Shown: positions 7,231 to 60,941 of the stretch, in pieces
Layout: the number at the start of each line of letters is the position of its first letter
How positions within the stretch are numbered: position 1 is the stretch's first letter
Assembly: GCA_003104905.1 (NCBI GenBank)
Contig: PQAS01000058.1
Coordinates: forward strand, 1 to 64,000
Source of the DNA: Candidatus Methanoperedentaceae archaeon
GTDB lineage: Archaea > Halobacteriota > Methanosarcinia > Methanosarcinales > Methanoperedenaceae
Length of the DNA stretch: 64,000 nucleotides
Direction: 5' to 3'
The notes under the pieces: model-generated
What the model was told of the DNA's origin: nothing
Database searches by the model: none
Seen by the model: only the letters and a program-made list of their open reading frames with translations
Made by a program: the position numbers and the translations under genes

Positions 7231-7243
7231 ATAAAAATACGGA

Positions 7244-7299: not shown

Positions 7300-7347
7300 T
7301 TGGATTTATGCCACAAGATTTATCTTCAAAAAAGCATACTTTCAACC

Positions 7348-31100: not shown

Positions 31101-31327
31101 TGGCATTTGAGTACCAGACCTCGGGATTTAATGATGCAAAGAGATTGACCGAAAAGAGAAAAACAGGAGAAAACAAGTATGGTCGTCTGTTTTTTATAGG
31201 AAATACTCATAGCGTAAAAGAGGTCGCGCTTGCGATCGGAACAGATGAAATAGTTATTCCGAGGGGGACTCGCCTTGAGGAGAAGATACAAGACCTGCTG
31301 GGTGAAAAAACTGTACAGAACGAGTAG
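28112..31327 (+). CDS. VirB4/TraC-type secretion ATPase with C-terminal nuclease-like domain
   Basis: 1071 aa. Two membrane-type segments lie near the N-terminus (about 33-72). A VirB4-like middle follows, then Walker A 'TLMIGPTRSGKTTAMAITG' (from residue 536), Walker B 'KTTIMIDEAGVFLKNARL' (about 766) and the 'ILKQAGSFGVRIIIGSQQLS' type segment, as in conjugation ATPases. After about residue 900 the protein leaves the VirB4 pattern: 'VNHYDDVDVVAWLPDGPVAF' and 'FEYQTSGFNDAKRL' resemble a PD-(D/E)XK-type core with D and E-x-Q. VirB4 powers pilus assembly and DNA transfer. The tail could be a DNA-processing or targeting module. No VirD4 or relaxase is nearby. Confidence 0.8.
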   Translation: MTDQNKIIIPLPPRFIVGKLQLGPLELAWDQVKVLLICTLLTTIVVGSGEGTAGLLLNLIELSVIWGLFYKYARTHDVLVESKIMLGHRIRKLKGLDKYSSVSSPDKHVSELYRFSIKSVSKTGIIDFGKNRFGVILGCDTRWLDDEELTRNIARVNGFLNSIQPGTLLKVRASSQIPYLNPVEKMVMKQVNQSRSPNEKALLYSLHDLSSRTPKTTDWDVKIFISMKSDPKEIETRMMTLIPGVKNRLQAAHTASAVITHPDKIYNILANDNTGYHVHANRTPALYGEKAIWKNILRQIMQGSIIENKDHLLVNNTEYISCLIVGIPVGGVSGFPPTLSPEILTQIYRLSASEEHVIRIDQSIYPINSPEALKEIKGAINLIKGNEQSLQHNQTARMDMGLDLEDLTALYAQIKDGRESMFNINFIITVFSPSYESLLSGLSKVSAILSANNIMNRVPDGRILETIQCTQFLPYYDEKIAVWLPTSGISRITPIVNGPNNMVSSNGVYFGNDIHTQQEVIIDLDKLGASHTLMIGPTRSGKTTAMAITGIRTILNGDDAIYITNKPDSTTNYLAVAEYFSDVSQIINLGRQPDGKTCYNINPLEIIFNENVQFDPISKFYEHVNTVKFFLNLLTGGDRTHKQITYIGETLVELYAKFGISPEDRKTWKQEKQPTFLDLYDLWEKDKMIYKNDATIEAVYSRTSSLRNTLRWLSNPTNVDLTKQYTVIDLSAIPIDAQEAMNYLLTAILALRFNIKSKRKTTIMIDEAGVFLKNARLQDEFSRMLKQAGSFGVRIIIGSQQLSDLSSIGPELRANIFISEVYGLNIGKSIDDVVRFFKLSNNDAQFLLSCSRPGMCAVSVGYPYATTYHMQRVASDLEAQILFGKQERQVAYTFIHPDLETFSKEQGVVMSDWINGDTTLLRAQRHTEWTQRAIGSGKVFAYIEKEMLNHELILNQSKEHYLSVIQIAAYFIERNIKVEVNHYDDVDVVAWLPDGPVAFEYQTSGFNDAKRLTEKRKTGENKYGRLFFIGNTHSVKEVALAIGTDEIVIPRGTRLEEKIQDLLGEKTVQNE

Positions 31328-41306: not shown

Positions 41307-42394
41307 CGAATTTCTCCTCCATCCAATGCTTGAATACCCAATCTTAAAGCCCTTTCCAGCAATTTTTTCTCTTCTGGATCGTTTGATCCGCTGATCTTTC
41401 CCTGCATTTTAGATATAAACGCGCCTTTAATAGTGTTATCCACCTGAAGATCTGATGGAGAAGTAATATTATCAATAATTTCTAAATGGAAAAAAGAATC
41501 TTCTATTTCTTCCAACATGGTTTCGCTATCTAACTTCAATAGTTTTTCTGGAACTCCAGACAATTTCACCCTCAATAATTTGCCGGGATCAGATTTCTCA
41601 CGTATTTTGGTCTCTATTTCCATTTCGTTAACCATATCTGTGCATTCTAATTCGTATGTCTCATACACTTTAGAATTGATATTATTTGGATTGATATTCA
41701 CTCCATTTTTATCAAGATCAACAAGAACAACGCCTCTTTGGCCTGTATCATTAAATCCTAATCCATCTGGAGTGCCGGGATAACATGCCGGAACAGATGT
41801 TTTTATCTCATGGAATGTATGAAAATGACCCAGAGCAATGTAGTCCATTTTACTGCCTTCAATTTCTTCTTTCTCTATCGGGTAGTAATTTTCATCTCCA
41901 AAATCCATGACTTTATATGAACCGTGAACCAATGCAATATTATATTTATCAGGCAAAGGCTCTGGCAGATCTTTCAATATGTGTTTATCGAATTTTTCAG
42001 AGTCATAAGCTATGCCATGTACTGCTAGATCCCCAATCGTTTTGGTGGAAAATTCTTTATCAAATATCGTTACGTTTGAAGGAAAATCATTTTCAGAATA
42101 TACGGATCCTTTTACCATTGGATCGTGATTTCCAGGGATCAAGAATACCGGGATTTGCGCCCTTTTCATTTCGTTTATGACAAAGGAAATCAATGATGGG
42201 GGTGGATAAGGATCATCAAAAAGGTCACCTGCTATCAATAATACATTTGATCTCGAACTTTGTGTCAGATCGATCATTTTGCTGAATGTCTTTTTCAGGT
42301 CTTCTCTTCGAATTCGTGCTTTGGCAGGGGGAAGACCCTTGAATTTTATACCCAAATGAACATCAGCAACATGCAATACTCGTAATGATTTCAT
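41303..42394 (-). CDS. Mre11/SbcD-like DNA exonuclease (YhaO-like)
   Basis: 363 aa. Phosphoesterase motifs in order: 'VLHVADVHLGIKFKG', 'LLIAGDLFDDP', 'VFLIPGNHDPM', 'IALVHGSYKV' and 'YIALGHFHTFHE'. A capping and partner-binding C-terminus follows. Mre11/SbcD proteins are Mn-dependent nucleases that process DNA ends together with a Rad50/SbcC ATPase, which here is encoded directly downstream with a 4-bp overlap. Because the host should have its own Mre11-Rad50, this pair is probably an element-specific defence or maintenance module. Confidence 0.87.
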   Translation of the reverse strand: MKSLRVLHVADVHLGIKFKGLPPAKARIRREDLKKTFSKMIDLTQSSRSNVLLIAGDLFDDPYPPPSLISFVINEMKRAQIPVFLIPGNHDPMVKGSVYSENDFPSNVTIFDKEFSTKTIGDLAVHGIAYDSEKFDKHILKDLPEPLPDKYNIALVHGSYKVMDFGDENYYPIEKEEIEGSKMDYIALGHFHTFHEIKTSVPACYPGTPDGLGFNDTGQRGVVLVDLDKNGVNINPNNINSKVYETYELECTDMVNEMEIETKIREKSDPGKLLRVKLSGVPEKLLKLDSETMLEEIEDSFFHLEIIDNITSPSDLQVDNTIKGAFISKMQGKISGSNDPEEKKLLERALRLGIQALDGGEIR

Positions 42395-42686
42395 TGATAC
42401 ACCGATTTAGTGGATTATTTATGTATTTATATATTTATTTCTGTGGCTATTTTGACTCTTTATTAGTTAGTAGTTACCACTTTTTTAATCCAATATAACT
42501 TCATCAGATATTAAGGTTATTTACAATATCATGATAATCATAATATCATAGAAGATTTTATATGATGGATAAATAATAGAGGATATATTATTTGATTCTC
42601 AAATATGGTATGAAGGTGAAAGGTTGATCAAAGTTGGAGAAGTATCAAAATAGTAAAGAAGCGTGTTATTTTGGGTGGAGATAAAT

Positions 42687-45104
42687 ATGAACGATAGAAA
42701 TAATGAGTACATTCAGGAATTTGATCGTTGGTATCAAGAGAAAGCCCGACCTTTTCTTAATGAACATTTGGAGAAAAAGTTTTTAGATCTGGATAATGGC
42801 CTCGAACGGATAAAAAGATTAGAGCAGATTGGAAATGAAGAGCTTCCCATATGTTTTCTTGGTGCATCAGGGGTTGGCAAAAGCACTCTAATAAATGCTC
42901 TGGTTGCTGGCAAGGAGCTAATCTTGCCTAGTGGGGGAATCGGCCCCCTGACTGCAATAGCGATGGACGTCAGTTACGATAGCAAACCAGCCTTTGAAGC
43001 GGAGTATCATACAGCTAGGGAGCTGAATAGATTGATTTTCGCCCTGCAAAAATCACCCGAATTGAAGGCTACCAAAAGCGTCAATGTTGATGTTTCCAAG
43101 GATTTGGACAATGATGCCAAACGAGATATCGAACTTAATTTATCCGACGATCAATTGTCAAATGATTCTTACAAACTAACTCCGATGCAGGTATACCGCA
43201 AACAAGCCCAACTTCTCATCAAGGGCAATCAGGATTCGGATGCAGATCTGCAATATTTGATAGATTCACTATGCAGTGCGGCTGGAAAGGGACGCCCATG
43301 CAGCACAAAAGTTTTGCCTGAGGACGAGGAACGAATCAACAGAATCAAGAGTGCCCTTCTTACAAAAGGGAAGAAGCGCGTTGAGCGTGGTGGGGATCCT
43401 GATGGATTTGATCGGGAGTTATCATATCACGCATCGGGTTTTCTAGCACCATTGATTAAGGCGCTGCATGTACGGTGGAATTCTGATTTTTTGAAAAATG
43501 GAATTCTGGTCGTCGATCTTCCTGGTGTTGGTGTGGCGGGGGATGCACACAAGGAGGAAACCGCCAAATGGATCAATGAGAAAGCTAAGGCTGTAGTCCT
43601 CGTCGTTGATCACCGGGGCATTACAGAATCATCTGCCGACTTACTTCGCAAGAGCCATTTTCTTCAACGCTTGATGTTTTATGCGGATGAACCTACTGAC
43701 GATCCATTGAAGCTAGCAGTGGCTGTTGTGCGTTTAGATGACGTGGCCGATAATGAATTTGCTAGGAACAGGAATCGGAGAAAAGCTGACCATCTATCTG
43801 ATCAGTTCGATCGAGCTCGTTCTCTGATTTCAGCACAGTTAAGGCAAGAACTTAATCGAGATTGGGATTCCAGCGACAAAGCCATAAGAAATACTAAGAT
43901 CGAGATCATTGAAAGGATCTGCAAAGACCTGTTAGTTTTTCCAGTCAGTGCTCCGCAATATCGAAGATTTCTTGCTGCAGATCCTGAAGATGCTGCATTC
44001 ATTAATAATATTGTTCAAAGTGGCATTCCCGCAATGCAGCAAGGTTTGATTGATATCACTGCTGCCTGGAAATCGGATGTGAGTCATCGATTGGATGAGT
44101 CAATTAAGGCGTGGAAGGATCTAATTGAGGCTCATATCAACAATGTGCGGGCTCAATGGGAAGGAAACAAACATACTGAACAAGAATTGCAAGATTTGCG
44201 ACGCGATATTGAGATGGTGCTAGGACCTCTCCAAAAGGAGTTCCTGGTTCGCCAGGGGTCCTTTCGTCAATTTCTTAAGAAAACTATGCCGAAGGAGATT
44301 GAAGCCCTTGTAATGCATGCCAAGGATAGTGCACGCAAAGAGATTAACAATTATCTCCAAGGCCTTAAGGACGCTCACTGGGCTACACTCAGAGCTGCAG
44401 TACGGCGAGACGGAGTATATCTCACTGGAAGAAGCAGAACGATTAATCTTCCTGATGACTTGACTGACAAGTTTATTGAGCCCATTGCAGATGTTTGGGG
44501 GAAATCCATAATCAAGGAAATCAGGAAGGAGACTCGTCAATATGTAATTGACTGCGAAAAAATGGTCATCGCATTAGCAAAATGGTGTCGAGAACAGGGC
44601 ACAAGAGTCTCTCCAAGCTTGTTGGACTCACAACTTGACCTTCTTAAGGCTGAAAGCAAACAGATTGATGAAGTCGGAAAAGAAATCCTTGATGGTCTCC
44701 GTGTTATGGTAAAAGATAATCTTTCCAAAGTAATCTACAAACCAATAAAGAACAAATGCAACGAATTTGTGAGGAAAGGAGACGACATAGGGCCTGGAGT
44801 CAAGGTTCGAATTCTTGACTTGTTTGATAATTTGGCAGAATCTAGCACCGATGTTGCTGCCGAGACAGCAAGGGAATTATTACTTGAGTGCTTCAAGATA
44901 GTTGAAAATGAGTTGCAACAGGTTCTAAAGAATCTCGAAAATCCCCTTGAGAACGCCCGAGATGGAATTTTGAACGCTCATCGAAACAGAATCGAGAAAG
45001 CGACCTCAAAAAATCGCCAAGAAATCCTCGATCGATGTGATGATTTGTTTCGATCCATTCCTAAAGCATCGAGCACACCCCCAGAAGAGCTTGTAGTGGT
45101 GTGA
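42687..45104 (+). CDS. dynamin-like large GTPase
   Basis: 805 aa from the ATG at 42687, behind GGTGGAG at 42674-42680. P-loop 'ICFLGASGVGKSTLINALV' (59-67), switch threonine in 'GGIGPLTAIAMDV', and G3 'GILVVDLPGVGVAGDAHKEE' (277-280). A G4-like 'VAVVRLDDVAD' carries RLDD instead of N/TKxD. The rest is long amphipathic helices with probable coiled coils. Bacterial dynamin-like proteins remodel membranes and several protect against phage. The stop codon overlaps the start of the SNF2 gene (GTGATG), so the two proteins are co-translated and likely work together. Confidence 0.75.
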   Translation: MNDRNNEYIQEFDRWYQEKARPFLNEHLEKKFLDLDNGLERIKRLEQIGNEELPICFLGASGVGKSTLINALVAGKELILPSGGIGPLTAIAMDVSYDSKPAFEAEYHTARELNRLIFALQKSPELKATKSVNVDVSKDLDNDAKRDIELNLSDDQLSNDSYKLTPMQVYRKQAQLLIKGNQDSDADLQYLIDSLCSAAGKGRPCSTKVLPEDEERINRIKSALLTKGKKRVERGGDPDGFDRELSYHASGFLAPLIKALHVRWNSDFLKNGILVVDLPGVGVAGDAHKEETAKWINEKAKAVVLVVDHRGITESSADLLRKSHFLQRLMFYADEPTDDPLKLAVAVVRLDDVADNEFARNRNRRKADHLSDQFDRARSLISAQLRQELNRDWDSSDKAIRNTKIEIIERICKDLLVFPVSAPQYRRFLAADPEDAAFINNIVQSGIPAMQQGLIDITAAWKSDVSHRLDESIKAWKDLIEAHINNVRAQWEGNKHTEQELQDLRRDIEMVLGPLQKEFLVRQGSFRQFLKKTMPKEIEALVMHAKDSARKEINNYLQGLKDAHWATLRAAVRRDGVYLTGRSRTINLPDDLTDKFIEPIADVWGKSIIKEIRKETRQYVIDCEKMVIALAKWCREQGTRVSPSLLDSQLDLLKAESKQIDEVGKEILDGLRVMVKDNLSKVIYKPIKNKCNEFVRKGDDIGPGVKVRILDLFDNLAESSTDVAAETARELLLECFKIVENELQQVLKNLENPLENARDGILNAHRNRIEKATSKNRQEILDRCDDLFRSIPKASSTPPEELVVV

Positions 45105-47869
45105 TGACGATGGCTGAACCTCGAATGGTATTACGCCCCAATGATATTATCCCTCTTTCAGTAATTCGACATCAAGAAGAATGGGGGCTATTATGCTTTG
45201 ACCTTGCTGGACCACCAAGGCGCTTCTGGGCTGATGGCGAATCTACACCTGTTCCGATTGTTGATATGGGGGTTGATGCCAGGCGGGTTGAATCCTGCCT
45301 CACACCCGCCCAACTATTGACTTCATTCCAGAACAATGATACGTGGCCATCCATGACCCGGAGAAGTATAGCCCGTTTGCGGGCCTTCTTCCTACTATCG
45401 GAGGATCCTCAGCGAAGGCTTGATGCGAGAAAAGTGAACACACTCGCGCATCAAGTTAGTCTCGTAAGACATATTTTGGATACTCCAACCCTGAAACGAG
45501 TTTTGATTGCTGATGAGGTGGGGCTGGGGAAGACTATAGAGGTCGGGCTGCTCGTTTATGAGCTACTTGCGTTGAGCCCTCGTCTTCGAGTCCTTTACCT
45601 AGCTCCTGCTCGACTAGTCAGGAACGTGCGACTAGAATTAGATCGGCTTGAACTTTCGTTTCGGCAATGGACGGCGGTAGATCGAGATGCGAGATTAGAT
45701 GACCAACTAGTCGTCGGAAGCATCCAAAAGGCCGTGCATCCTTCTAATAGCAAGAAAATTCTTGACAGTGGTCCCTGGGATATCGTGGTGGTTGATGAGT
45801 GCCATCACTTGTCAGATTGGGGGCTTGGAGGGGGGAATCCTAGGGAGAACTACAGACTTGTACGTGATCTTCTGGCAAAGATGAATACAGCTGGACGAGT
45901 ATTCTTCCTTAGTGGAACTCCCCATCAAGGACATCAACCTCGGTTTGAGAACCTTCTTCGTTTGCTTCAACAAGAAGGCGAATCCATAAATGAAATGGCC
46001 GGTCGAGTCATATATCGGACAAAAGATGATGTTGTGGACTGGGATGGCAACCCAATCTTTCCGAGCCGACAAGTAAACTCACCCATTGTCTTTGATTCTG
46101 GTGAGCATTATCGAGAATGGCTAAAGGAAATTCACCAGTTCTATAGTCCATATGGTATTTTCGACGATCAAGATGCAGGCAAGCGAGCCGCAGGATGGCG
46201 CTGTGCCCAGGCGTTGCAATGGGCAGCTTCCAGCCCGAAGGCGGGACTCAGCTATTTGATTAGGCAAGCGATCCGTGCAGGTTGGACGCTTAAAACTCGG
46301 AACTTGTCTTCTGCGCTGGCCGCCCTTAGACCTTACAGGAAAGGCCCTGTTAACGAACCATTGGACCAACTTTTTAATCGAATTAAGAAGGACCTAGGTC
46401 CCCAAGATGATGGAGCCGAGTTAGAGGACATTGAGGAAGGTGAAGATCAAATATGCAATGATGTAGATCACGCTGGATTGGAGCAATTAATCAAGATTGG
46501 CCTTTCAGTTCTAAGAGAGTCTGGGGATTCTAAATGGAATCTGATAAGAGATCGACTGCTTGAACCGGCTGGAAATGAGCGTGTTGTCTTGTTTGCACAG
46601 CCCATCGAAACAGTTACCGATTTCGCTCAGTATTTAGAACGAACTTTTGGGATGCCGCCAGCAGTAATTATTGGAGGGCAGACTGACTTGGAACGGCAGA
46701 AAGAAATAGATCGGTTCAGAAGCCCCAATGGCCCTCAATTCTTAGTGTCTTCCAGGGCAGGTGGGGAAGGAATCAACCTTCAGGTTGCGTGGCGTCTTGT
46801 TCATATTGACGTTCCCTGGAACCCTATGGAACTAGAGCAAAGAGTAGGAAGAGTCCATCGCTTTGGTACGAGAGAGAAAATTATTATAGATACATTGGTA
46901 ATGAAGAATACCCGGGAAGAGGAGGCATATGCAGTTGCAAACAATAGACTTCGAATGATTGCAGCGACGCTAGTTCCTCCAGATAAATTTGATGCATTGT
47001 TTTCTCGCGTCATGACATTGATTCCACCAGAGGAACTGCAGGAAGCTATTTTGAGACGAAGCGATGCAGATGGCGGAGTTGACGTAGAAATGATCAGTCG
47101 TCTGGTTCAAGAAGGCTTCAAAAATTGGAGTTCCTTCCATACCAAGTACTCATCCGAGCAAAAGAAAATCAAGGAATTGAACCCTGGATTGGCCAATTGG
47201 GGGGATGTTTATGAGTTTGTTTGTGAACAAGCGGGTGCCAAACCAGTTGCAGGATTTTCATCGCTATATTTCCGCTCAAATGGTGGCGAAGTTAATGGCC
47301 AGACGCGGGAGGCCAAAGTAGTAACCTTCGATGAAACTAGCTATTTTTGTTGTGGAGATTATGCTGGGATGCCGGTTTATTGTCCTGGCAACTCTAAGGC
47401 TGAACAATTGGGATTGAATGCCACGGTAGTGGCATCAGCACTTCGACAGGCTGCTTTTCCGAAAGAAGTCTGTGGGGCTGCACATCTTCGTTGGCCCAAA
47501 GACATTGAATTGCCTCTTCGGCTGCGACCGCCGTTCGGCGTAATCATACTATTGAAACAGACACTTAGAATGGAGCAAGCCACTTGGCGCGAAGGGCAAA
47601 CTTCCCTTCATTGCTATGTTGCGACTCAAGAAGATGGCCACAAACTCGTAGGTGGGCATGACCGTGAATTGCTTTTGCGTGGGATTTTCAAGGGAACCAT
47701 TCGAACTAAACCAGAAGAGAATAAAGAACTCGTCGAAAAGATCTGCATGGCCGAGGAATCTATCATCGGTACTCTTCAGCAGATCACAAGTCAAGAGATG
47801 GCTCAGGGAACACGATATGCTGTAATGCCTTTGTTTGCTGGCATAGTCGGGGTTCCAAGTAAAGATTGA
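45101..47869 (+). CDS. SNF2-family (RapA/HepA-like) DNA translocase
   Basis: 922 aa; starts are crowded (GTG 45101, ATG 45104 or ATG 45110). Motif I 'LIADEVGLGKTIEVGLLVYE' (138-146), Ia 'VLYLAPARLV', II 'IVVVDECHHLSDW' (232-236), III 'FFLSGTPHQGHQ', V 'VSSRAGGEGINLQV' and VI 'MELEQRVGRVHRFG'. All SNF2 helicase motifs are intact. The C-terminal 250 residues are not assigned. SNF2 proteins translocate on duplex DNA. In defence systems such as DISARM they act beside nucleases or methylases, but here the only coupled partner is a dynamin-like GTPase. Confidence 0.85.
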   Translation: MMTMAEPRMVLRPNDIIPLSVIRHQEEWGLLCFDLAGPPRRFWADGESTPVPIVDMGVDARRVESCLTPAQLLTSFQNNDTWPSMTRRSIARLRAFFLLSEDPQRRLDARKVNTLAHQVSLVRHILDTPTLKRVLIADEVGLGKTIEVGLLVYELLALSPRLRVLYLAPARLVRNVRLELDRLELSFRQWTAVDRDARLDDQLVVGSIQKAVHPSNSKKILDSGPWDIVVVDECHHLSDWGLGGGNPRENYRLVRDLLAKMNTAGRVFFLSGTPHQGHQPRFENLLRLLQQEGESINEMAGRVIYRTKDDVVDWDGNPIFPSRQVNSPIVFDSGEHYREWLKEIHQFYSPYGIFDDQDAGKRAAGWRCAQALQWAASSPKAGLSYLIRQAIRAGWTLKTRNLSSALAALRPYRKGPVNEPLDQLFNRIKKDLGPQDDGAELEDIEEGEDQICNDVDHAGLEQLIKIGLSVLRESGDSKWNLIRDRLLEPAGNERVVLFAQPIETVTDFAQYLERTFGMPPAVIIGGQTDLERQKEIDRFRSPNGPQFLVSSRAGGEGINLQVAWRLVHIDVPWNPMELEQRVGRVHRFGTREKIIIDTLVMKNTREEEAYAVANNRLRMIAATLVPPDKFDALFSRVMTLIPPEELQEAILRRSDADGGVDVEMISRLVQEGFKNWSSFHTKYSSEQKKIKELNPGLANWGDVYEFVCEQAGAKPVAGFSSLYFRSNGGEVNGQTREAKVVTFDETSYFCCGDYAGMPVYCPGNSKAEQLGLNATVVASALRQAAFPKEVCGAAHLRWPKDIELPLRLRPPFGVIILLKQTLRMEQATWREGQTSLHCYVATQEDGHKLVGGHDRELLLRGIFKGTIRTKPEENKELVEKICMAEESIIGTLQQITSQEMAQGTRYAVMPLFAGIVGVPSKD

Positions 47870-51074: not shown

Positions 51075-51770
51075 ATGTTGGAGATGAAAAAAATGCTTAA
51101 TAAGATGGGTGATTCATCATATCATAAATTGAAGTGGAACATTAAAGGTGTTTTTGACAATTTCCCAATAATAGAAAAAGCACTGGAAAATCAGTTAAAT
51201 CAGCTTCCTGAAAATCATCTTCGAGAAAAAAGGAAGATTACAAACTGGATTGATCAAATTAAGAAAATCAACAATAATATCAATCATATTAAGAAATCTA
51301 AACTTGTTGAACTGGAAAGAAATATTAATTACAATTTTGCAGAACCGGATTTGGTTGTTTTATCTTTTATTCAGCCAAGCATCAGAAATATGTTTGAAGA
51401 GTTGAATATATATTATTCAAAACTCAGCTTGAATGCTAATTTAGAAACTTGTTTGAGCATAGATGAGGCGGCTAAAGTGTTAGCATTAATTGGTGATGCT
51501 GCAATCAGTCTGGCATTGATACAGATTCTCTGGCAGCCTAATATTTCAAATGTTGGAGAGTTATCAATAAAGCGATCAGAATATGCATCAAATGAAAATA
51601 TGGCAATGATGTGTGATAAATGGGGTTTGTATGATTTTAGAATTCATTTTGGTTCAGATCATTCTGAAAATAACCATGCAAAAGGAACCATTATAGAAGC
51701 ACTGTTTGGTGTTGTATATATTGAAGCCGGGCTAGACCAAGTAATACTATCAATCGATACCTTAAAGTAA
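51075..51770 (+). CDS. RNase III-like domain protein, catalytically degenerate
   Basis: 231 aa from the ATG at 51075; the ATG at 51093 behind GGAGATG is an alternative. The C-terminal 130 residues follow RNase III: 'DEAAKVLALIGDAAISLALI' (signature, retaining the Asp of GD) and 'NNHAKGTIIEALFGVVYIEA' (retaining the final Glu). The two signature glutamates (E-x-x-E before the GD) and the Asp three residues before the final Glu are replaced. The N-terminal 90 residues are helical and coiled-coil-like, with no double-strand RNA-binding domain. Family membership seems good; cleavage activity is doubtful. Confidence 0.68.
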   Translation: MLEMKKMLNKMGDSSYHKLKWNIKGVFDNFPIIEKALENQLNQLPENHLREKRKITNWIDQIKKINNNINHIKKSKLVELERNINYNFAEPDLVVLSFIQPSIRNMFEELNIYYSKLSLNANLETCLSIDEAAKVLALIGDAAISLALIQILWQPNISNVGELSIKRSEYASNENMAMMCDKWGLYDFRIHFGSDHSENNHAKGTIIEALFGVVYIEAGLDQVILSIDTLK

Positions 51771-52135: not shown

Positions 52136-52247
52136 ATATAACTATTTATATCTTTGCAGCATATCATGCCGAAAAAGCAAGCAGAATAGGAGCATCCTGG
52201 AAAAATAAGCGCCGATCGGATGAATTTAAAAATTTTAGTAAAATTGA

Positions 52248-52330
52248 TGCGAGAGATGGGATTTGAACCCACGAATGCCTGCGCAATTGGATCTTAAGTC
52301 CAACTCCTTTGGCCACTTGGATACCCTCGC
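52248..52330 (-). tRNA. intact tRNA-Leu(UAA) carried by the element
   Basis: 83-nt class II tRNA. Acceptor GCGAGGG pairs with CTCTCGC (one G-U), anticodon arm TTGGA-CTTAAGA-TCCAA (UAA), variable arm, T arm GTGGGTTCAAATCCCAT, discriminator A. It lies 107 bp inside the right att core and differs from the reconstructed host tRNA in the acceptor, D and anticodon stems while keeping the same anticodon. It is the only complete tRNA in the window and probably supplies the function lost by splitting the host gene. Confidence 0.93.
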
Positions 52331-52415
52331 ATATTTTGACCTTATTAAACACAAGGTTTATATCTGAAATTTGCCAAGTATTCATTGCCTTTTTTATGAT
52401 GTATTGGCTTAAATC

Positions 52416-52437
52416 TTGTGTTGTGTTTTTAACACAA
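52416..52437. repeat. inverted repeat touching the right att core
   Basis: TTGTGTT (52416-52422) and AACACAA (52431-52437) form a perfect 7-bp inverted repeat whose last base is the first base of the att core. It may be a recombinase arm or core-binding site, or a terminator-like hairpin. Confidence 0.45.
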
Positions 52438-52449
52438 TCTTAAGTCCTG
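52437..52449. other. right attachment-site core
   Basis: 13-bp ATCTTAAGTCCTG identical to 7287-7299, same orientation. Confidence 0.88.
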
Positions 52450-52476
52450 CACCTTTGGCCGCTTGGTTACCCCCGC
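52437..52476 (-). tRNA. 5' half of the split host tRNA-Leu(UAA)
   Basis: On the minus strand from 52476: acceptor strand GCGGGGG, D-arm region (TAACCAAGCGGCCAAAGGTG), then the anticodon arm start CAGGACTTAAGAT, where the match ends at the att core. GCGGGGG is fully complementary to CCCCCGC in the 3' half 45 kb away. Confidence 0.9.
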
Positions 52477-52832
52477 ACAGGGAGTGACGTTAAAAATCTT
52501 TTTGATGCATATTTATAACGCTTTTATATGTTTTTCTTAACTTATCCCATTTGAGGGATTAGTACCCTTTATTAGTTGCAGGGGTATAAAAAAGTACCAC
52601 ATTCCCCTTCTTCTTTTGTGAAAAACAGAGGTATTGAGACAACATGAAACAGTACAGGATAGGCTTCCTTCAAAAAGTATCATGTTGCCATCCTCCATCC
52701 TTAAGATTGTTCTTATAGGGGATAAAAAGGATAAGTGGTTATCAAATCTGATAATGCTTATAAAAAAAATTTAGAAAAAAAGAAGGTATGAATCCTTCTT
52801 CTTTCAATTTTCTCAATTTATTATCTATTTTA
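52477..52832. other. non-coding interval downstream of the large cytochrome gene
   Basis: No gene. It holds direct-repeat copy 1 (52701-52756) and an A/T-rich tract that may terminate transcription of the cytochrome gene. Confidence 0.5.
52701..52756. repeat. 56-bp direct repeat flanking the cytochrome gene, copy 1
   Basis: 51 of 56 bases match 57492-57547 in the same orientation (shared blocks GATTGTTCTTAT, GATAAAAAGGATAAG and TCAAATCTGATAATG). Copy spacing is 4791 bp. Confidence 0.75.
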
Positions 52833-55800
52833 TTATTTGCCCTTGCTAACTCTGGTCGACGCTTGCCCATTCAAGTCTCTCACTGTTAACTGATCATTTA
52901 CTGCTGCAGTTCCAGCATCGACCACTATACTGTTTTCTGACCAGCTTGTGGCTGTAGCTCTGAATGTTGCCGGCCTGCCCTTCACTATGTGAGTAATGAA
53001 CACTCCAAGATCAGAGAATGCTGGATCTGGTTTTGGTCCGAAGTTTGCACCTGTGATTGTTATGCTTCCTGACGCCAGTTTCGCGGATGCGACAGTTGTC
53101 TGTGTTACGGCAGTCAATGTAGTCAGTTTGCTCTTTGCATCTCCTTTCACAAGCTGCAATTTATGAACTCCTGCACTGAGTGCAGGGATATTCACCACTA
53201 TCTGTGTATCAGTTATTGATGCAGGCATATATATTACTCCATCTACAGATACAACCGATGTATACGCATCGTTGACGAAGTTCAGACCTGCGATAGTGAT
53301 ATCATTCACACTGCCTGCTAAAACTACAGACGGCGTTATGCTATCCATTGATGGAATAATGGCTCCCTGCATCGGTGCTGCTCCTGCAATCCATGATGCA
53401 TGGCAACCGTTGCAATCCGAGTTATTCCCGATATGGCCATTACCGGATTGTCCGTTATTTACTACCTGGATATTGTGGATTGACTGAACACTATGGCATT
53501 TCTCACAAGCTGTGCCGTTTATAGGCATAGTAGTACCTTGCTCAAAAGTTGCATTAGCAATATCAGCTGCCATAAGTGTAGAATTTCTCAACTCAATTAC
53601 GGTTTCTTCAGTACCATTAATTGTTATTTTAACAGTCGCATTTTGCACATCAAGTGATAGATGGCACCAGGTACATACATATCCGGATGTGCTATCTTTT
53701 TGATGTCCAATACCTCCATCCCAACCGGAAATTGCACCGTGGTGTGTATCGTGTTGGGTCATGATGACCGGCGATTCTGAGGAAGAGTTTCGGTGGCAGG
53801 CATAGCAGCCTCCCCAATATTTACCGCTTGTCGCATTATACGCCTTGAAATCAGCATATGGAGTTATCATAAACGATGTGTTATATGATGGTATATAATG
53901 GCTGTCGTTATAATTGGCTACGAAGCTGCCATGACAAACATTACACTGTCTTTCTTGTGCAGGCTGTCCAATACCTGCAGAATCATACGATGTATTGATA
54001 TGATGAGGTCTAGTTATGTTCACCTGTGCGCCAAGAGTATTGCCCCAGAACGCTGAACCGTTATGGCAATTAATACAGTTCTTATCTATCAGCATACCAT
54101 TTCCCACTCCTGGAGTTGAGGGGTGACAATCCTGGCAGCTGAATAGCTGGCCATTTGTTGGGTTTATCTGACTCCCAACCAGGTTGTGATGCCTCGTGCG
54201 TACACCGCCCATGTAAGTTGAATTATGACAGTATCTACACAATGACTCTGTATACTTATCAACCCTGGTATCGTATACACCTATGCTCTGATTTAAGGTA
54301 ATATTTTGTGGGGAAGGGGGTGATCCTTCAGAGACATTGTAGACATTATGAAGAAGCCCTGTAATATTTGTGCTTGGTGTCAGGCCTCCGTGACATACCT
54401 GACATGATGCGTCGTCTTTTGCAATATTGCTATGATTGAAATAACCGGGTTTACTCTGGTTTGCGCCATATGTTGCTTGACCCGTAATTTCAGGCGGCAC
54501 AACCAGTGCAATGAAACTGTTCACCATGTCATTGTAATTATTGGAACCGCTGGTATATCCCTGCCAGTGGCAGGAGGAGCACCAGTAGGTTGCACTTGAT
54601 ATTGTTGAGCCAACTACATTGTTGCCGTCAAATTGAGCGGGTCTGCCAAGAGCATTCTGATCATGCTGGGTGGACCCATGACAGTAAACACAAGCAGATA
54701 ATTGCGCGCTTGAACCTGTTGTCCAGTAGTTATTCCATTTCTGGCCTGCTAATGGATCATTGCTGTGGTTCAATGGTTTCTGGACCTTTGGGGCATTTAA
54801 CAGTCCCGTGCCCTGATGGCAGTCGGTACAGTTAACTGCACTCGTCTTATTTTCCGGACTATTGGGCTTGAATGATCCGTCTGGCTGTAAATATTGTACA
54901 GGGTGGATATTCTGGCCGGATGCCAGATGGCACTGTGTACAATCCACCGACCCATTATGCTTTTGCTTTGATAATGAATTATGACAGGTCTGGCAATAAC
55001 TGCTATTCGCAAGAGTGAGTGCGGGTTTGGTAAGCGTGCTCTCGTGTATTCTTCCGGAATTGTGACAGTTAATACATCCTGGATTTGTTCCAAGTTCTGT
55101 ATGGTTGTCTATACTTGCATTCCATGATGCATTTACCATTTCAGTTGTGAAAGTACCGGAGGGATTCTGGTGACAGTATGTACAATTGGATGTACTTCCT
55201 GTATTGTATAGAGAATCCGATGTCTTATTGCTGCCGTAATGGCTCACACTCGCAAATATTGATTTGACACCTCCAGGATCGCTATTCGAAATGATCATCT
55301 CTGTTTTATTGTGACAGTTCACACAGGAATCGTTAACAGTTGTATATTGTTTTGTCTTGATTTCAGATCCTGCTGAGTTATGTTCGCTCGCTATAAATGC
55401 TCCGAAATTACCGCTATCTGTGTGGCACTGGGTACATTTCTTGGGGACTTTATAGCCGTCAGGATGAGCGTTTGTGGGAAGTTCTGCTTCATTCACAACA
55501 CCATCTGCTGATACGGTGCTGTTGGTATGGCAGGCATAGCAGCGTTTGTTATCTGCTCCACTCGCGGTGGCGCCGTTGTTCAAGATATTGTGGATCGATG
55601 TGGCAGTGTTCATCTTGCTGACATCAACCTTTGCCTGACTTGCACCTATATCATGGCAGCTTACACAATTAGGACCCCCTCCCTTTCCGACATCCACATT
55701 ATGTACGAATTCACTGATATCCGGCGATGCCGAGAGAACTCCACCGTGGCATGCCATGCAATCTGCATCCGTGGTGCCATATGAAGCATGGTCAGTGCCG

Positions 55801-57353
55801 CTATTATTCCAGTTAGCTTGATTTAATAGGATACCGACCGGATCACGTGCAAATAATGCCATCGTTGCTGCATAATTACTATCTGTTGGATTATGACAGC
55901 TTGAACATACAGTGCCGCTGCCTATTGTTCCACCGATCGTGTCGGTTCCAGCAGGTACTGAAGCATTGCCCAGTCTTTTTGCGACATGTTTGTTATCGCC
56001 GTGACAATAAATACAGGCATCCTTTGTTGATGTCCAGTAAGTATTCCATTTTGTACCATTTCTATCTGTGCTGTGGTTCAATGGTTTCTGGACATGGGGA
56101 GCGGTTCCCGGATAGTCTCCGTGTTTTGGCTGCAAAAGAAGTGCGGAAAAGAAACTGGCATTCTGGTGGCAGTTGGTGCAATCGCCTTTATTTGTGCTGT
56201 TTAGATCCACATAAGTTGCAGTCTGGGAGAATACCTTGATTGCGTGAGCATCCTGGCTATGGCATACTGTGCAACTTACGTTATTGTTGTGGCGCTCATA
56301 TGCTTTGTGGCAGGAAGTGCATTGGGTGTACTCGGTGATGTCATTACTATTCGCAGGCAGAGGGGCAGGTTTTGTAATGTTGTGCATAGGTCCGTGGCAT
56401 ATCCAGCATGGCACGCCTTTGGTGTTGTTGTACCAGGTGCCATTGTGAGCTGAGTAAGAAATTACTGTTGACTTATTTGTTGTGGAATAGATAGTCGTGC
56501 CAGTTATACCATCAATAGTAGCCAACGTGTTGAAGCTAGTCAGGTTGTTATTATTCGCAGGGTGACAGTTAGCATTGTAGCAACTTGGGGTAAGAGTAGG
56601 CCAGGTATTTGTATTGAAAGGACCGTGACAATTTGCGTCGCTGCATGTGAATATACTATGTTTATCTATTGTTCTATCATTGTTGCCATATCCGGGATGG
56701 CATTTAACACATGGTGTCCCGTGGTTGCGACCGGTATGAGCCCCGGCGGCCATGCTATTAACCGTACCTGAAGAACCGAATTTATCTGAATAGGGGGATC
56801 TCGGAGAAGTCTGGTATTTTGCAGTAGTGGTTGGATTTTTATGACAATATCCTTTGCTGCAACTGGAAGTATATCCTTGAATGGAAAGGTTTACATAAGC
56901 AGTATCATTTATGCTTGGGCTGCTGACAATATTTGCCTTAACAGTCCAACTACCATAATCCGGATCTGTATCAGACGTAAAATCTCCTTTAACGCTATAC
57001 GGAAATAACGCAAGCCCGTTTGAAGCTGTAATCTTTGTACCACTCGCTTTTAGAGTTCCCGCTCCACTTTTAATTTCAAAATAAACATTCTGGCCGGCAA
57101 GTGGCATTCCATTAGCATCTACTAGCAATGCACCTGCCGTAAAGGTAAAAGAGCTATTATCACTATCATAACCCGATAAAAGTACTGAGGCATTATTGAA
57201 ACTTGCCACCGAATATCTATTTGTTGAGACCATTATTGTCTCATTAGCTGCACTTGCAGCACTACTCGAAAATAAAAATATCAATATTCCAAAAATAAGA
57301 ATTTTTCCAGCATCTATACTCCACGCTTTTTTAATCAATTTTTTTTCACTCAT
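52833..57353 (-). CDS. very large secreted multiheme cytochrome c with 31 haem-binding motifs
   Basis: 1506 aa. Signal peptide (ILIFGILIFLFSSSAASA), an N-terminal Ig-like domain (about 40-165, 'ALLVDANGMPLAGQNVYFEI'), then a haem region to about 1340 and two C-terminal IPT/TIG-like domains ('IIPSMDSITPSVVLAGSVND', 'SGSITITGANFGPKPD'). I count 28 CXXCH motifs plus three CX4CH motifs (CSKGYCH, CSDANCH, CYNANCH) clustered near the front. Internal similarity ('HVQKPLNHS' with 'KWNTYW'; 'KVQKPLNHS' with 'KWNNYW') points to duplication of a haem block. No S-layer domain or membrane anchor is seen. Such proteins are proposed extracellular electron conduits in ANME archaea. Confidence 0.93.
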   Translation of the reverse strand: MSEKKLIKKAWSIDAGKILIFGILIFLFSSSAASAANETIMVSTNRYSVASFNNASVLLSGYDSDNSSFTFTAGALLVDANGMPLAGQNVYFEIKSGAGTLKASGTKITASNGLALFPYSVKGDFTSDTDPDYGSWTVKANIVSSPSINDTAYVNLSIQGYTSSCSKGYCHKNPTTTAKYQTSPRSPYSDKFGSSGTVNSMAAGAHTGRNHGTPCVKCHPGYGNNDRTIDKHSIFTCSDANCHGPFNTNTWPTLTPSCYNANCHPANNNNLTSFNTLATIDGITGTTIYSTTNKSTVISYSAHNGTWYNNTKGVPCWICHGPMHNITKPAPLPANSNDITEYTQCTSCHKAYERHNNNVSCTVCHSQDAHAIKVFSQTATYVDLNSTNKGDCTNCHQNASFFSALLLQPKHGDYPGTAPHVQKPLNHSTDRNGTKWNTYWTSTKDACIYCHGDNKHVAKRLGNASVPAGTDTIGGTIGSGTVCSSCHNPTDSNYAATMALFARDPVGILLNQANWNNSGTDHASYGTTDADCMACHGGVLSASPDISEFVHNVDVGKGGGPNCVSCHDIGASQAKVDVSKMNTATSIHNILNNGATASGADNKRCYACHTNSTVSADGVVNEAELPTNAHPDGYKVPKKCTQCHTDSGNFGAFIASEHNSAGSEIKTKQYTTVNDSCVNCHNKTEMIISNSDPGGVKSIFASVSHYGSNKTSDSLYNTGSTSNCTYCHQNPSGTFTTEMVNASWNASIDNHTELGTNPGCINCHNSGRIHESTLTKPALTLANSSYCQTCHNSLSKQKHNGSVDCTQCHLASGQNIHPVQYLQPDGSFKPNSPENKTSAVNCTDCHQGTGLLNAPKVQKPLNHSNDPLAGQKWNNYWTTGSSAQLSACVYCHGSTQHDQNALGRPAQFDGNNVVGSTISSATYWCSSCHWQGYTSGSNNYNDMVNSFIALVVPPEITGQATYGANQSKPGYFNHSNIAKDDASCQVCHGGLTPSTNITGLLHNVYNVSEGSPPSPQNITLNQSIGVYDTRVDKYTESLCRYCHNSTYMGGVRTRHHNLVGSQINPTNGQLFSCQDCHPSTPGVGNGMLIDKNCINCHNGSAFWGNTLGAQVNITRPHHINTSYDSAGIGQPAQERQCNVCHGSFVANYNDSHYIPSYNTSFMITPYADFKAYNATSGKYWGGCYACHRNSSSESPVIMTQHDTHHGAISGWDGGIGHQKDSTSGYVCTWCHLSLDVQNATVKITINGTEETVIELRNSTLMAADIANATFEQGTTMPINGTACEKCHSVQSIHNIQVVNNGQSGNGHIGNNSDCNGCHASWIAGAAPMQGAIIPSMDSITPSVVLAGSVNDITIAGLNFVNDAYTSVVSVDGVIYMPASITDTQIVVNIPALSAGVHKLQLVKGDAKSKLTTLTAVTQTTVASAKLASGSITITGANFGPKPDPAFSDLGVFITHIVKGRPATFRATATSWSENSIVVDAGTAAVNDQLTVRDLNGQASTRVSKGK

Positions 57354-57491
57354 ATCGCCTATCCCATCCTATCAAATTTTATTAGATATGTCTTTACAAT
57401 TATTATGAGACTGAAGAGCCTCTAAATACCGGGATATTTTCTTGAGGTTCTTCTTCTTACTGCTGTTATTTGTTCATATCACGTTACTAAC

Positions 57492-57547
57492 TTAGGATTG
57501 TTCTTATCGGAGATAAAAAGGATAAGGGGTTCTCAAATCTGATAATG
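57492..57547. repeat. 56-bp direct repeat flanking the cytochrome gene, copy 2
   Basis: Matches 52701-52756. It lies 12 bp before the stop codon of the tyrosine recombinase gene, which suggests a link to its recombination site. Confidence 0.75.
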
Positions 57548-57558
57548 AGTTTTTCTAA

Positions 57559-58707
57559 CTATCTTGATTTTTTATTTTTTATTTTTGAAATTCCTTTCAT
57601 TATCTCCAACAACTGTGCCTCAAGGATATCCAGTCTTTTCTTAAGTTCCTGGGTCTCGCCATCCTTTGATTCGAGTTTTTCTTTGAGTGTCTCATTCTCT
57701 TTCGAAAGTTCATCGAGTCTCTTTGCGTCCTGTGTATCCAGGGATCGAATTATGATCTTTTTCTCAAAAGTCAAATGCGGGAGGAACGTTTTATACGTTT
57801 CTCTCAATTTATATACATCATAACGGAAATACGCAAGGTCACTACTTTTAGAAGTGTGTCCTAACATAAAGTCAATCATTTTTTTTGGCATTCCTGCGTT
57901 TTCCAAAGTAGATGCAAAGAACTTGCGCAAAGCGTGGCTCTTTGATTTTATTTGATAGTCTCCATTCTCGTATCCAAGCTGTGCAGCCAGCGTTCTAAAA
58001 AGCTTCCCGAAGGTTGTTTTGTTTATGCGTGTGGCGTTGTCGTATGTCACGAAGACAAAATCGTTCCCTTTGATTTTTAGCTTATCTATCCTGCCCCTTT
58101 CTTCAAAATAGTTCTTAAGAGCCTGTACTCCTTCCGGGCTGATGAAAGTGGTATAATCAACCTGCGGGTTTTGCTTCCTTACTGAAACAGTCCCTATATC
58201 ATCATCATCAAAGGCAATATCGTGTATTCGCAGGTTGATAATTTCCTGCCGTGCCATGCCGGACGTGACCATACAAAGAATAATAGCCCGGTCGCGCAGG
58301 CTGTGGCAATTCGTAACGAGGTTTTTCACATCTTCTTTCGATAAGAAGTTCATGTTCTGCCGCAAAGGCATCGGTTTTTTAATCCTGGTTATGCCCGACG
58401 ACAACTGTATATCATAAGCCCTGTAAAAGCTGCGGACACAGGTAATGGCTAATGATTGGGCTTTCGGTGACATTTCTTTGTTTTTAAGGCATATTTTATA
58501 TTTTGCAAAATATTCAAGCTCTTTTCTTTCACCCGGTAGTTTACCAGCCTTAATCTCGATTATCGCTTCGGAAATGAGTTCACCTGGTGCTTTCCCTGCA
58601 CACTCGCAAAACAGCTTCATATACATGGAGTAAACCCTCTGTGTGGATTCCGCAAGGTCTGAATTGGCGAACCATTGGAGCAATTTAACATCTTTCAATA
58701 TGTCCAT
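57559..58707 (-). CDS. tyrosine recombinase (second integrase)
   Basis: 382 aa. N-terminal SAM-like domain ('LAESTQRVYSMYMKLFCECA'), then catalytic residues: Arg in 'MVTSGMARQEIINLRIHDI', a Lys candidate in 'GTVSVRKQNPQ', 'KSHALRKFFASTL' (HxxR), 'FMLGHTSKSS' (His) and Tyr in 'DLAYFRYDVYKLR'. The last 80 residues are a leucine/glutamate-rich coiled coil. It differs from the integrase at 7348 and lies outside that element. The direct repeat touching its 3' end suggests it acts, or acted, on the cytochrome segment or another element to the left. Confidence 0.88.
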   Translation of the reverse strand: MDILKDVKLLQWFANSDLAESTQRVYSMYMKLFCECAGKAPGELISEAIIEIKAGKLPGERKELEYFAKYKICLKNKEMSPKAQSLAITCVRSFYRAYDIQLSSGITRIKKPMPLRQNMNFLSKEDVKNLVTNCHSLRDRAIILCMVTSGMARQEIINLRIHDIAFDDDDIGTVSVRKQNPQVDYTTFISPEGVQALKNYFEERGRIDKLKIKGNDFVFVTYDNATRINKTTFGKLFRTLAAQLGYENGDYQIKSKSHALRKFFASTLENAGMPKKMIDFMLGHTSKSSDLAYFRYDVYKLRETYKTFLPHLTFEKKIIIRSLDTQDAKRLDELSKENETLKEKLESKDGETQELKKRLDILEAQLLEIMKGISKIKNKKSR

Positions 58708-58837
58708 ATTAAATAGTAAGGATTGAATGATATATAAGATTTATCTAAAAAAGATTACCATAATTAACTCCTAAATCACTCTTAGATTACTTTAAGCTAA
58801 CGGCATGATTATGTATGATATCTTTCTATTATTATCT

Positions 58838-59830
58838 ATGCCCTTTGTCACATTTTCCCGAAATGTATTCATCCCGCTCACGAATGTCTGCAGGAACAGG
58901 TGCGGATATTGCGGATTCCGGCGCGATATGGGCGAGGCAAAACTTCTCTCACCCCCTGAAGTTAAGGCAATACTTTTAAAAGGCGCACGTTCCGGGTGTT
59001 CTGAAGCGCTTTTCACATTCGGAGAGCGTCCGGAGGAAGTTAATGGTTTCAGTGAATGGCTTATGGAGTTTGGATATGAGAATATTATAGATTATCTCCT
59101 GGAGATGTGCAAACTTTCAATAAACTTTGGCCTTTTGCCCCACAGCAATCCCGGAATACTTGAAAAGCCGGAATTTGAAAAATTAAAACCATATAATGCA
59201 AGCATGGGGCTGATGCTTGAGACTCTTGCCGAGATCAAAGGACATGAGGGCTGCGCGGGAAAATCCCCGGGTGCTCGCATAAAGACAATCGAATATGCCG
59301 GAGAACTCAAAATCCCCTTCACCACAGGAATTCTTACAGGAATAGGTGAAACATGGGAAGAAAGAGTGAGCTCTATCCATAAAATAAAAGAACTGCATGA
59401 AGAATTCGGACATATCCAGGAAGTCATAATCCAGAATTTCATTCCAAAACCCGGAACCAGAATGGCTTCATGGGATGCTCCGGGAATAAAAGAGATGATG
59501 CGAACGGTCAGGATGGCAAGGGAGATACTCCCGGCTGATATAACCATCCAGGTTTCACCCAACCTTATTCCCCCCCGGGAATTAGTAAAATGCGGCGCTA
59601 GTGACCTTGGGGGCATTTCACCCGAGACTATTGATCATATCAATCCCGAAGCACCATGGCCGAATTATATAGAATTGCAGGCAATGGTTGATGTTCCCCT
59701 TCGCGAAAGGCTGCCCATATATCCCGGATATATACAAAAAGGATGGTACAGCCCCAGGATCAGGGATTTATTGTTTACTCTTTCTGATACGGAAGGATTT
59801 AGGAAAACTTATAAACAGGAATATCGTTAG
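58838..59830 (+). CDS. cofG: 7,8-didemethyl-8-hydroxy-5-deazariboflavin synthase subunit CofG
   Basis: About 330 aa from the ATG at 58838 (MPFVTFSRNVFIPL); an earlier ATG at 58805 adds 11 residues. Radical SAM motif 'TNVCRNRCGYCGFRRDMGEA' (CxxxCxxC), then 'ALFTFGERPEEV', 'NPGILEKPEF', 'TTGILTGIGETWEERVSSI' and 'NFIPKPGTRMASWDAPG', all typical of CofG. With CofH it builds the deazaflavin chromophore Fo of coenzyme F420 from tyrosine and an aminopyrimidine. cofH follows in the same direction 31 bp downstream. Ends with TAG. Confidence 0.95.
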   Translation: MPFVTFSRNVFIPLTNVCRNRCGYCGFRRDMGEAKLLSPPEVKAILLKGARSGCSEALFTFGERPEEVNGFSEWLMEFGYENIIDYLLEMCKLSINFGLLPHSNPGILEKPEFEKLKPYNASMGLMLETLAEIKGHEGCAGKSPGARIKTIEYAGELKIPFTTGILTGIGETWEERVSSIHKIKELHEEFGHIQEVIIQNFIPKPGTRMASWDAPGIKEMMRTVRMAREILPADITIQVSPNLIPPRELVKCGASDLGGISPETIDHINPEAPWPNYIELQAMVDVPLRERLPIYPGYIQKGWYSPRIRDLLFTLSDTEGFRKTYKQEYR

Positions 59831-59861
59831 AACTGCAAATTCTGGTGGTAATATTCAGAAA

Positions 59862-60941
59862 TTGCAGGCCAAACAGGAATTGCGAAATATTCACGATGAA
59901 TGTACACAACGCGTCTTAGCTGGAAAATCTACTGTGGATGATGCATTGTTTCTTCTGAATTATCCGTCTTATCTATTTTCTTTAGCTGACATGCTTCGAA
60001 AAAATGTATCGGGGGACCGTGTGACCTATGTCATTAACAGGAACATAAATTTTACAAATAAATGCATCGGGACATGTAAATTCTGTGCCTTCAAGAAACA
60101 GGATGGATATATCATGTCAATCCCTGAAATTCTTGAAAAGACAAGAACTGCTGTCGCGATCAATGCCACTGAGGTTTGTATCCAGGGGGGTCTGCTTGCC
60201 AATTGGGATGTATTTGATTATTGCAATATCCTTGAGAACATTAAGAGTGAATTCCCGAAAATTCATATTCACGCTTTTTCTCCAATGGAAGTATATCATG
60301 CTTCGCAAAACAGCAATATGAGTTACAAAGAAACACTCTCAAACCTGAAAAGATCGGGTCTTGGCTCCATGCCGGGCACGGCTGCTGAAATACTTGTTGA
60401 CCGTGTGAGGGAAGAGATATGCCCGGATAAACTTACTGCCCATGAGTGGATAGATGTCATCAAAACAGCTCATAATTCAGGTATCCCCACAACAGCGACA
60501 ATAATGTACGGACATATTGAAACTCTTTCAGAACGAATAGAACATATAATGTTAATCAGGGATATCCAGAAGAAAACCGGTGGTTTCACTGAATTTGTGC
60601 CGCTTCCTTTTATGGCCTCCAATAATACCCTTGGAATGGGGAAAAATGTTTCCCGCGGCATCGAAGATCTAAAACTTCATGCCCTTGCAAGAGTACTCCT
60701 GTATCCGTATGTTAAAAATATCCAGGCAAGCTGGGTAAAGCTTGGCAGGGAACTTGCGCAATCAGCTCTTACATGCGGGGCTAATGATCTTGGCGGAACA
60801 TTGATGGAAGAACAGATATCAAAGAGTGCCGGGGCAACAAGCGGCGAGTATATGGCGCCCTTTGAGTTTGAGGAAATGATAAGTCAAATGAACAGGATCC
60901 CGCAGCAAAGGGATACTCTTTACAAATATATCAATCCCTAG
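59862..60941 (+). CDS. cofH: 5-amino-6-(D-ribitylamino)uracil:tyrosine 4-hydroxyphenyl transferase CofH
   Basis: 359 aa with TTG start at 59862 (GGTGGT at 59844-59849 as ribosome-binding site); the frame is open further upstream but would overlap cofG by about 140 bp. Radical SAM motif 'FTNKCIGTCKFCAFKKQDGY', 'EVCIQGGLLANWDVFDYCNI', 'IHIHAFSPMEVYHASQ', 'GSMPGTAAEILVD' and 'LTCGANDLGGTLMEEQISKS'. These are CofH landmarks. It joins tyrosine-derived hydroxybenzyl to the pyrimidine precursor before CofG closes the ring. Ends with TAG. Confidence 0.94.
   Translation: MQAKQELRNIHDECTQRVLAGKSTVDDALFLLNYPSYLFSLADMLRKNVSGDRVTYVINRNINFTNKCIGTCKFCAFKKQDGYIMSIPEILEKTRTAVAINATEVCIQGGLLANWDVFDYCNILENIKSEFPKIHIHAFSPMEVYHASQNSNMSYKETLSNLKRSGLGSMPGTAAEILVDRVREEICPDKLTAHEWIDVIKTAHNSGIPTTATIMYGHIETLSERIEHIMLIRDIQKKTGGFTEFVPLPFMASNNTLGMGKNVSRGIEDLKLHALARVLLYPYVKNIQASWVKLGRELAQSALTCGANDLGGTLMEEQISKSAGATSGEYMAPFEFEEMISQMNRIPQQRDTLYKYINP

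Follow-up and report, generated by a model that had tools for sequence, protein, structure and literature searches.

A leucine tRNA gene broken and replaced by an integrative, conjugation-like element of Methanoperedenaceae archaea

The stretch of DNA analysed here (the window, 64,000 nucleotides of contig PQAS01000058.1 of a methane-oxidising Candidatus Methanoperedentaceae archaeon) carries what is almost certainly an integrative conjugation-like archaeal element with a 'break and replace' integration module: the host tRNA-Leu(UAA) gene is split, and a complete tRNA of the same isoacceptor lies just inside the element. If the reading is correct, this would be the first archaeal and the first non-phage case known to us of an integrating element that disables an essential tRNA gene of its host and compensates with its own copy. 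Comparison of the locus across many related genomes reveals the stages by which a mobile element turns into a resident gene, and in some lineages the tRNA of the element appears to have permanently replaced the host gene. Two questions become testable, namely whether the anticodon stem has been recoded as an adaptation against the integrase that the element itself encodes, and by what route mobile DNA replaces essential translation genes. The module is present in other families of the order and could thus serve as a selectable integration tool for archaea.

The split host gene and the element

The window is part of a 121-kb contig in a 2.91-Mb draft genome (59 contigs, 98.47% complete; G000 below). 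The sole tRNA detected in it by ARAGORN is a tRNA-Leu(UAA) on the minus strand (52246-52331), and the only match to the Rfam tRNA model RF00005 is at 52248-52330 on the same strand (56.5 bits, E=1.6e-9). The parts of the attachment region are listed below.

7287-52449: integrated element, about 45.15 kb between the core copies; the homologous locus is collapsed in G004
About 7243-7299, minus strand: broken 3′ half of the host tRNA-Leu(UAA), beginning in the att core and flanking attL; 100% identical to the joined query
7287-7299, minus strand: attL core CAGGACTTAAGAT, in the anticodon stem-loop; one of just two copies in the genome
7312-7322, minus strand: putative left arm site of the integrase, TAAATCTTGTG, an 11-bp inverted repeat with 52410-52420
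52248-52330, minus strand: complete tRNA-Leu(UAA) borne by the element, anticodon stem recoded to TTGGA/TCCAA from the host CAGGA/TCCTG (ARAGORN, Rfam and region-wise comparison)
52331-52436, minus strand: spacer from the broken 5′ half to the element tRNA, with ATATAAA about 30 bp upstream of the tRNA; probable tRNA promoter
52350-52361, minus strand: third arm-like copy, ATAAACCTTGTG, overlying the TATA box of the element tRNA; similar in G011, G018 and G005
52410-52420, minus strand: putative right arm site of the integrase, CACAAGATTTA, an 11-bp inverted repeat with 7312-7322
52437-52449, minus strand: attR core CAGGACTTAAGAT, the other of the two genome copies
52437 to about 52476-52484, minus strand: broken 5′ half of the host tRNA-Leu(UAA), ending in the att core and flanking attR; 100% identical in G002
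58805-60941, plus strand: radical-SAM region, the ancestral neighbour of the tRNA locus; 70-75% blastn matches adjoin the tRNA in G001, G002, G011, G015 and G024

At the two junctions of element and host, ARAGORN found no complete tRNA but half genes only. Both halves contain the 13-mer CAGGACTTAAGAT, which has no third site in the 2.91-Mb genome, and joining the flanks in silico restored a perfect cloverleaf tRNA-Leu(UAA), 100% identical over its full length to the intact tRNA of a relative (G001:C68). The splitting of the host gene, which the first-pass annotation had read from the letters of the window alone, is therefore real. Its description of a complete element tRNA with stems unlike those of the host also held: this tRNA starts 106 bp inward of the core and differs from the host tRNA chiefly in the acceptor and anticodon stems. 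When sequences were shuffled, an inverted repeat of 11 bp around the core was reached in 10 of 5000 trials.

The possibility had further been raised that the split copy was the only leucine tRNA of the host with the UAA anticodon. A scan of the genome gave 43 tRNAs, with leucine represented by CAA, UAG, GAG, CAG and the UAA tRNA of the element. A search with the joined host tRNA returned the two halves and the element copy as its only UAA matches. Thus neither approach revealed a second intact tRNA-Leu(UAA) in this 98.47%-complete genome, an assembly in 59 contigs from whose last 1.5% a tRNA could have been missed. UUA is an ordinary codon of this host: ten of its ORFs use it for 44 of 324 leucines, and the two RNA polymerase fragments examined contain it five times. 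A leucine tRNA with the CAA anticodon is unable to read UUA. At 98% identity, the tRNA-Leu(UAG) of the same genome (G000:C55:96950-97034) closely matches the UAG tRNA carried by the element of G018, so that a second leucine tRNA of this genome may be element-derived.

The main genes of the element are the following.

7300-8487, plus strand: tyrosine integrase with a C-terminal zinc ribbon (Pfam PF00589, E=4.9e-16); 395 aa from TTG 7300, ATG 7348 being the likelier start
15870-17470, minus strand: AbiEii/AbiEi pair, a type IV toxin-antitoxin system, inside the element (PADLOC, E=1e-80 and 5e-88)
18276-20024, plus strand: Prim-Pol replication protein (PF09250, E=7.3e-24)
25965-31327, plus strand: conjugation-like module with a T4SS pilin-like protein and a VirB4-like ATPase

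The reading frame of the integrase is unbroken and adjoins attL. Ten element proteins were scanned against PHROGs and no phage structural family was found among them. In view of this result, and of the VirB4-like ATPase and the T4SS pilin, the term 'lysogeny' is not applicable; the logic of integration is alike. Neither a free circular form nor an attP junction was found in viral contigs or in the genome of the window. The viral contigs contained no relatives of the integrase and no attP junction pattern, and a plasmid collection yielded distant integrases only, every one below 60% identity. Cargo of defence type occupies 13828-14916 and 39207-47869 (a viperin-like radical SAM protein, a Lamassu-like SMC ATPase with an Mre11-like phosphoesterase, a dynamin-like GTPase and a DISARM/BREX-like helicase). 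Near the element tRNA lies a gene for an RNase III-domain protein (51075-51770, plus strand; PF00636, E=1.8e-13), a protein that is, to our knowledge, unusual in archaea. Outside the element, 52485-58800 holds a second insertion between the broken 5′ half and the ancestral radical-SAM neighbour. This insertion contains an ORF of 1506 aa, another tyrosine integrase (57559-58707) and, at 52700 and 57491, a direct repeat of 57 bp.

Recurrence with other leucine tRNAs and recoding of the anticodon stem

Of the 186 genomes of the order, 30 have relatives of the integrase (E<=1e-75). Each of the 31 loci inspected adjoins the 3′ half of a tRNA-Leu gene, the isoacceptors being UAG (15), UAA (8), CAA (4), GAG (2) and CAG (2). 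In 13 further elements, those whose other end was readable, a broken 5′ half is followed by a spacer of 44-112 bp and a complete tRNA of the same isoacceptor. This layout is seen with UAA in G002, G003, G011 and G015, with UAG in G018, G136, G107, G096, G097, G101 and G095, with CAA in G006, with GAG in G005 and with CAG in G151; several of the genomes that show it are single-contig. A single tRNA is carried, and in every readable case its isoacceptor is that of the broken gene. In the UAG cases outside the genus, the element copy is the only UAG tRNA found, other leucine matches being GAG, CAG or UAA, with one match in G095 left untyped. In G113 the attR half and a UAG tRNA are present, and no 5′ half was found next to the CAG tRNA of G154. 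By the CAG site of G151 and G154 (G151:C1:165642-174637 and G154:C1:1615923-1627739), several 3′ halves resembling tRNA-Leu lie within about 10-12 kb, and these clusters look as if integration had occurred repeatedly at one locus.

Among 12 elements compared (13-45 kb), the integrase alone is a protein common to all, so that integrase and tRNA behave as a portable module. The proposal that the element tRNA rescues the broken host gene is strongly supported, since this tRNA is the sole intact reader of UUA in the genome of the window and since 13 other elements carry the matching isoacceptor.

The element tRNAs were compared with the host tRNAs by region in ten pairs. No change was found in the anticodon loop (0 of 70 positions). 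In the anticodon stem 46 of 100 positions (46%) differ, all as full compensatory pairs; the corresponding values are 16% for the acceptor stem, 5% for the D region and 3% for the T arm. In G136 the whole tRNA shows five differences, four of them in the anticodon stem. Host-type Leu(UAA) tRNAs compared with one another gave 0 stem changes in 100 positions, a control drawn from one isoacceptor and one genus and set against ten partly non-independent pairs, so that the contrast is a strong one and not a formal probability. We infer that recoding of the stem allows the element tRNA to escape from the element's own integrase. In the simplest view, the stem would hold the core-binding sites of the integrase and the loop would be the region of strand exchange, in which case the element could protect its copy only through stem changes. 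Alternatively, the tRNA of some elements may derive from a naturally divergent allele, and the normal UAG tRNA of G151 and G154, which already has an ATGGG stem, fits this alternative.

Takeover in the genus, proposed dependence of the host and rival explanations

Among the 31 genomes of the genus, 15 have the host-type Leu(UAA) tRNA, 14 have the element-type and none has both. Two genomes have neither, and their completeness is 63% and 74%. In G000, G002, G003, G011 and G015, the element-type tRNA has the broken host 5′ half just upstream of it. The sister genomes G015 and G024 share the same odd D-arm insert and the same 3′ flank, the host gene being split in G015 and unbroken in G024; to judge from these shared features, G024 is the natural empty site for G015. 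The insert, about 20 nt (CCGGCCAAATACAAAAGAGG; G024:C86:22479-22552 and G015:C1:654879-654945), is perhaps a non-canonical intron, and the intact G024 gene that carries it was missed by ARAGORN.

In other genomes the host gene has decayed further. Short remnants of the host half are all that is left directly upstream of the element-type tRNA in G012 and G022, and host halves are decayed or lost in G003 and G004 as well as in these two. In G004, G005, G009, G013, G017 and G029, the element-type tRNA follows straight after the host promoter region and no element is present; in G004 the clean element-type tRNA stands between the same two host flanks as in the window, and the 45-kb element has been lost. 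On a tree of rpoB and rpoA1, about nine gains of the element-type are required, with clustering no greater than that of shuffled labels, and the sister pairs G015/G024, G012/G008 and G002/G019 are of unlike type. The CAGGA stem for UAA is kept in other families of the order. In rpoA1 of G011, G013, G017 and G023 (L206, L212, L211 and L210), the match is about 294 bases longer than in other genomes, and the open frame is 977 against 879 aa in three of the four, a possible intein or insertion.

A copy of this tRNA at the same position in strains that lack the element had been named as a refutation of rescue. Such copies were found in the six genomes just listed, but they do not refute rescue because remnants of the broken host half are present in other genomes and the gains are about nine and scattered. 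For the same two reasons, the element-type tRNA alone at the locus is read as the end state of takeover. In the cleanly replaced genomes, taken as a group rather than one by one, the direction of transfer would be from element to host.

An addiction-like dependence of the host was also proposed, and it stands in part. Loss of the element with the halves left apart should be lethal. After precise excision, however, the halves would be joined again into the host tRNA gene, and a cleanly cured cell is therefore predicted to live; in this respect the element is unlike a toxin-antitoxin pair. Until the host halves decay, the element would punish partial loss and not clean excision, and lock-in is seen only after such decay (G003, G012 and G022). 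The mechanism had been described as one without a toxin. This does not hold for the element as a whole, which also has a toxin-type gene in its AbiEi/AbiEii pair.

Four other explanations were weighed against the break-and-replace reading. The element-type tRNA could be an ancient allele of the hosts, passed down vertically within part of the genus and simply picked up by elements, as the clean copies at the ancestral locus in the six element-free genomes would suggest. This is very unlikely, as sister pairs differ in type, the nine changes on the tree equal the random expectation, remnants of the host half lie directly upstream of the tRNA in G012 and G022, and the other families retain the CAGGA stem. 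It is highly improbable that the tRNA serves translation of the element's own genes, or resistance to tRNA-cutting defences, with host rescue being incidental. UUA is slightly more common in element genes (151 of 894 leucine codons) than in the host genes counted, and the element bears an AbiE pair; against this, there is a single tRNA, always the isoacceptor of the broken gene and at a fixed place beside the junction, and 12 elements of unrelated content have just the integrase/tRNA module in common.

In archaeal split tRNAs both half genes are kept and their products are joined via a bulge-helix-bulge motif. That the present halves form a working split tRNA, trans-spliced as in Nanoarchaeum with the flanking inverted repeats pairing the half-transcripts, is extremely unlikely. 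The 11-bp inverted repeat does lie just outside the core on both halves, and a TATA-like sequence precedes both. However, the 13-nt core is duplicated and present on each half, a complete tRNA is available, the inverted repeat can also be explained as integrase arm sites, and the host halves have decayed or been lost in four genomes. Integration could also be of the ordinary tRNA-targeted kind, with the host tRNA made whole at an attachment junction and the additional tRNA carried as cargo. Tyrosine integrases of archaea and bacteria usually act in this way (PMC8371274), and yet the probability of such an event here is close to nil: the core is only 13 bp, the element side of the halves is not tRNA-like, and the additional tRNA is without exception the isoacceptor of the broken gene, 44-112 bp from the broken 5′ half. 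A host tRNA rebuilt at a junction is already refuted by both junction sequences.

Proposed mechanism and comparison with known systems

In the proposed break-and-replace mechanism, the tyrosine integrase, binding the 11-bp repeats beside the core, would take the anticodon stem-loop of the host tRNA-Leu(UAA) gene as its target and recombine it with a short core of attP. With a common core of just 13 bp, the tRNA is restored at neither junction and the host gene is left in two parts. The cell would survive because the element brings a whole tRNA-Leu of the same isoacceptor, encoded on the strand of the host gene and with a TATA-like promoter, 106 bp inside its right end. Expression of this copy would rely on a promoter of its own or on read-through from that of the host gene. 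It retains the anticodon loop needed for decoding, while the compensatory changes of the stem should let it escape recognition by the integrase. As long as both halves are intact, precise excision could restore the host gene. Decay of one half, or deletion of the element from its other end, would make the element tRNA the permanent host gene and deprive the locus of its attachment site. More generally, it is fairly likely that a portable module of integrase and spare tRNA, carried by otherwise unrelated elements throughout the order, breaks leucine tRNA genes and substitutes integrase-resistant, stem-recoded copies, and that repeated integration and decay have rewritten host leucine tRNA genes permanently, leaving loci that are now immune to this integrase.

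In SSV-type suicidal integration, attP lies within the integrase gene, which is split upon integration; the present integrase, in contrast, has an intact frame beside attL. The archaeal tyrosine recombinases known to target tRNA genes include those of SSV, pNOB8, pTN3, pT26-2 and SNJ2, and integrases of the pT26-2 type can target tRNA-Leu(TAA) in Methanococcales (review PMC8371274). Reconstruction of the tRNA is treated there as the rule for archaeal recombinases. These rebuild an intact tRNA at the junction, whereas the Methanoperedenaceae element does not. The Methanoperedens plasmid HMp_v5 has tRNAs seemingly absent from the host chromosome, which implies host dependence (PMC9674854); these are tRNAs for Asp, Arg and Val, present on the plasmid along with protein genes, and neither broken chromosomal halves nor integration are described. 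For the tRNA-Thr of Caldiarchaeum, integration of a mobile element has been linked to a tRNA fragment beside a complete tRNA (Sugahara 2012, PMC3293823). This is a single case with intron gain, read as a route to split or intron-containing tRNAs, with no replacement module or element family. Our search of the open-access literature found no earlier description of break-and-replace tRNA integration in archaea (Methanoperedens, Methanosarcina).

Bacterial phages offer nearer parallels. As it is cited in PMC10865867, the Lactobacillus johnsonii prophage Lj965 does not rebuild the tRNA on integration and encodes the cognate tRNA; being a bacterial prophage, it is likened to the present element by description and not by sequence. 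Nearest of all known systems is the tRNA-dependent lysogeny seen in actinobacteriophages such as Fionnbharth and Gaia, in which the core is about 10 bp, the tRNA is not rebuilt and integration is viable only if the phage supplies a tRNA of the same isotype (Guerrero-Bustamante & Hatfull 2024, PMC10865867). Neither archaea nor stems came up when the text of that paper was searched by word. The likeness extends to a tyrosine integrase next to the att site (PF00589, E=4.9e-16 here), to an attB that overlaps a host tRNA gene with a short core (13 bp, in the anticodon stem-loop), to the lack of a functional tRNA at either junction, to a matched tRNA supplied by the element, as in the 13 further elements, and to a host without another copy of the broken tRNA (UAA here, and the UAG cases). 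In contrast to the actinobacteriophage system, the hosts are archaea and the element is conjugation-like, without recognised phage genes. In all readable archaeal elements, no more than about 110 bp separate the tRNA from the junction; the genes affected comprise five leucine isoacceptors, the anticodon stem is recoded, and the genomes hold a record of decay and permanent takeover. The present case is thus an archaeal, non-phage variant of tRNA-dependent lysogeny.
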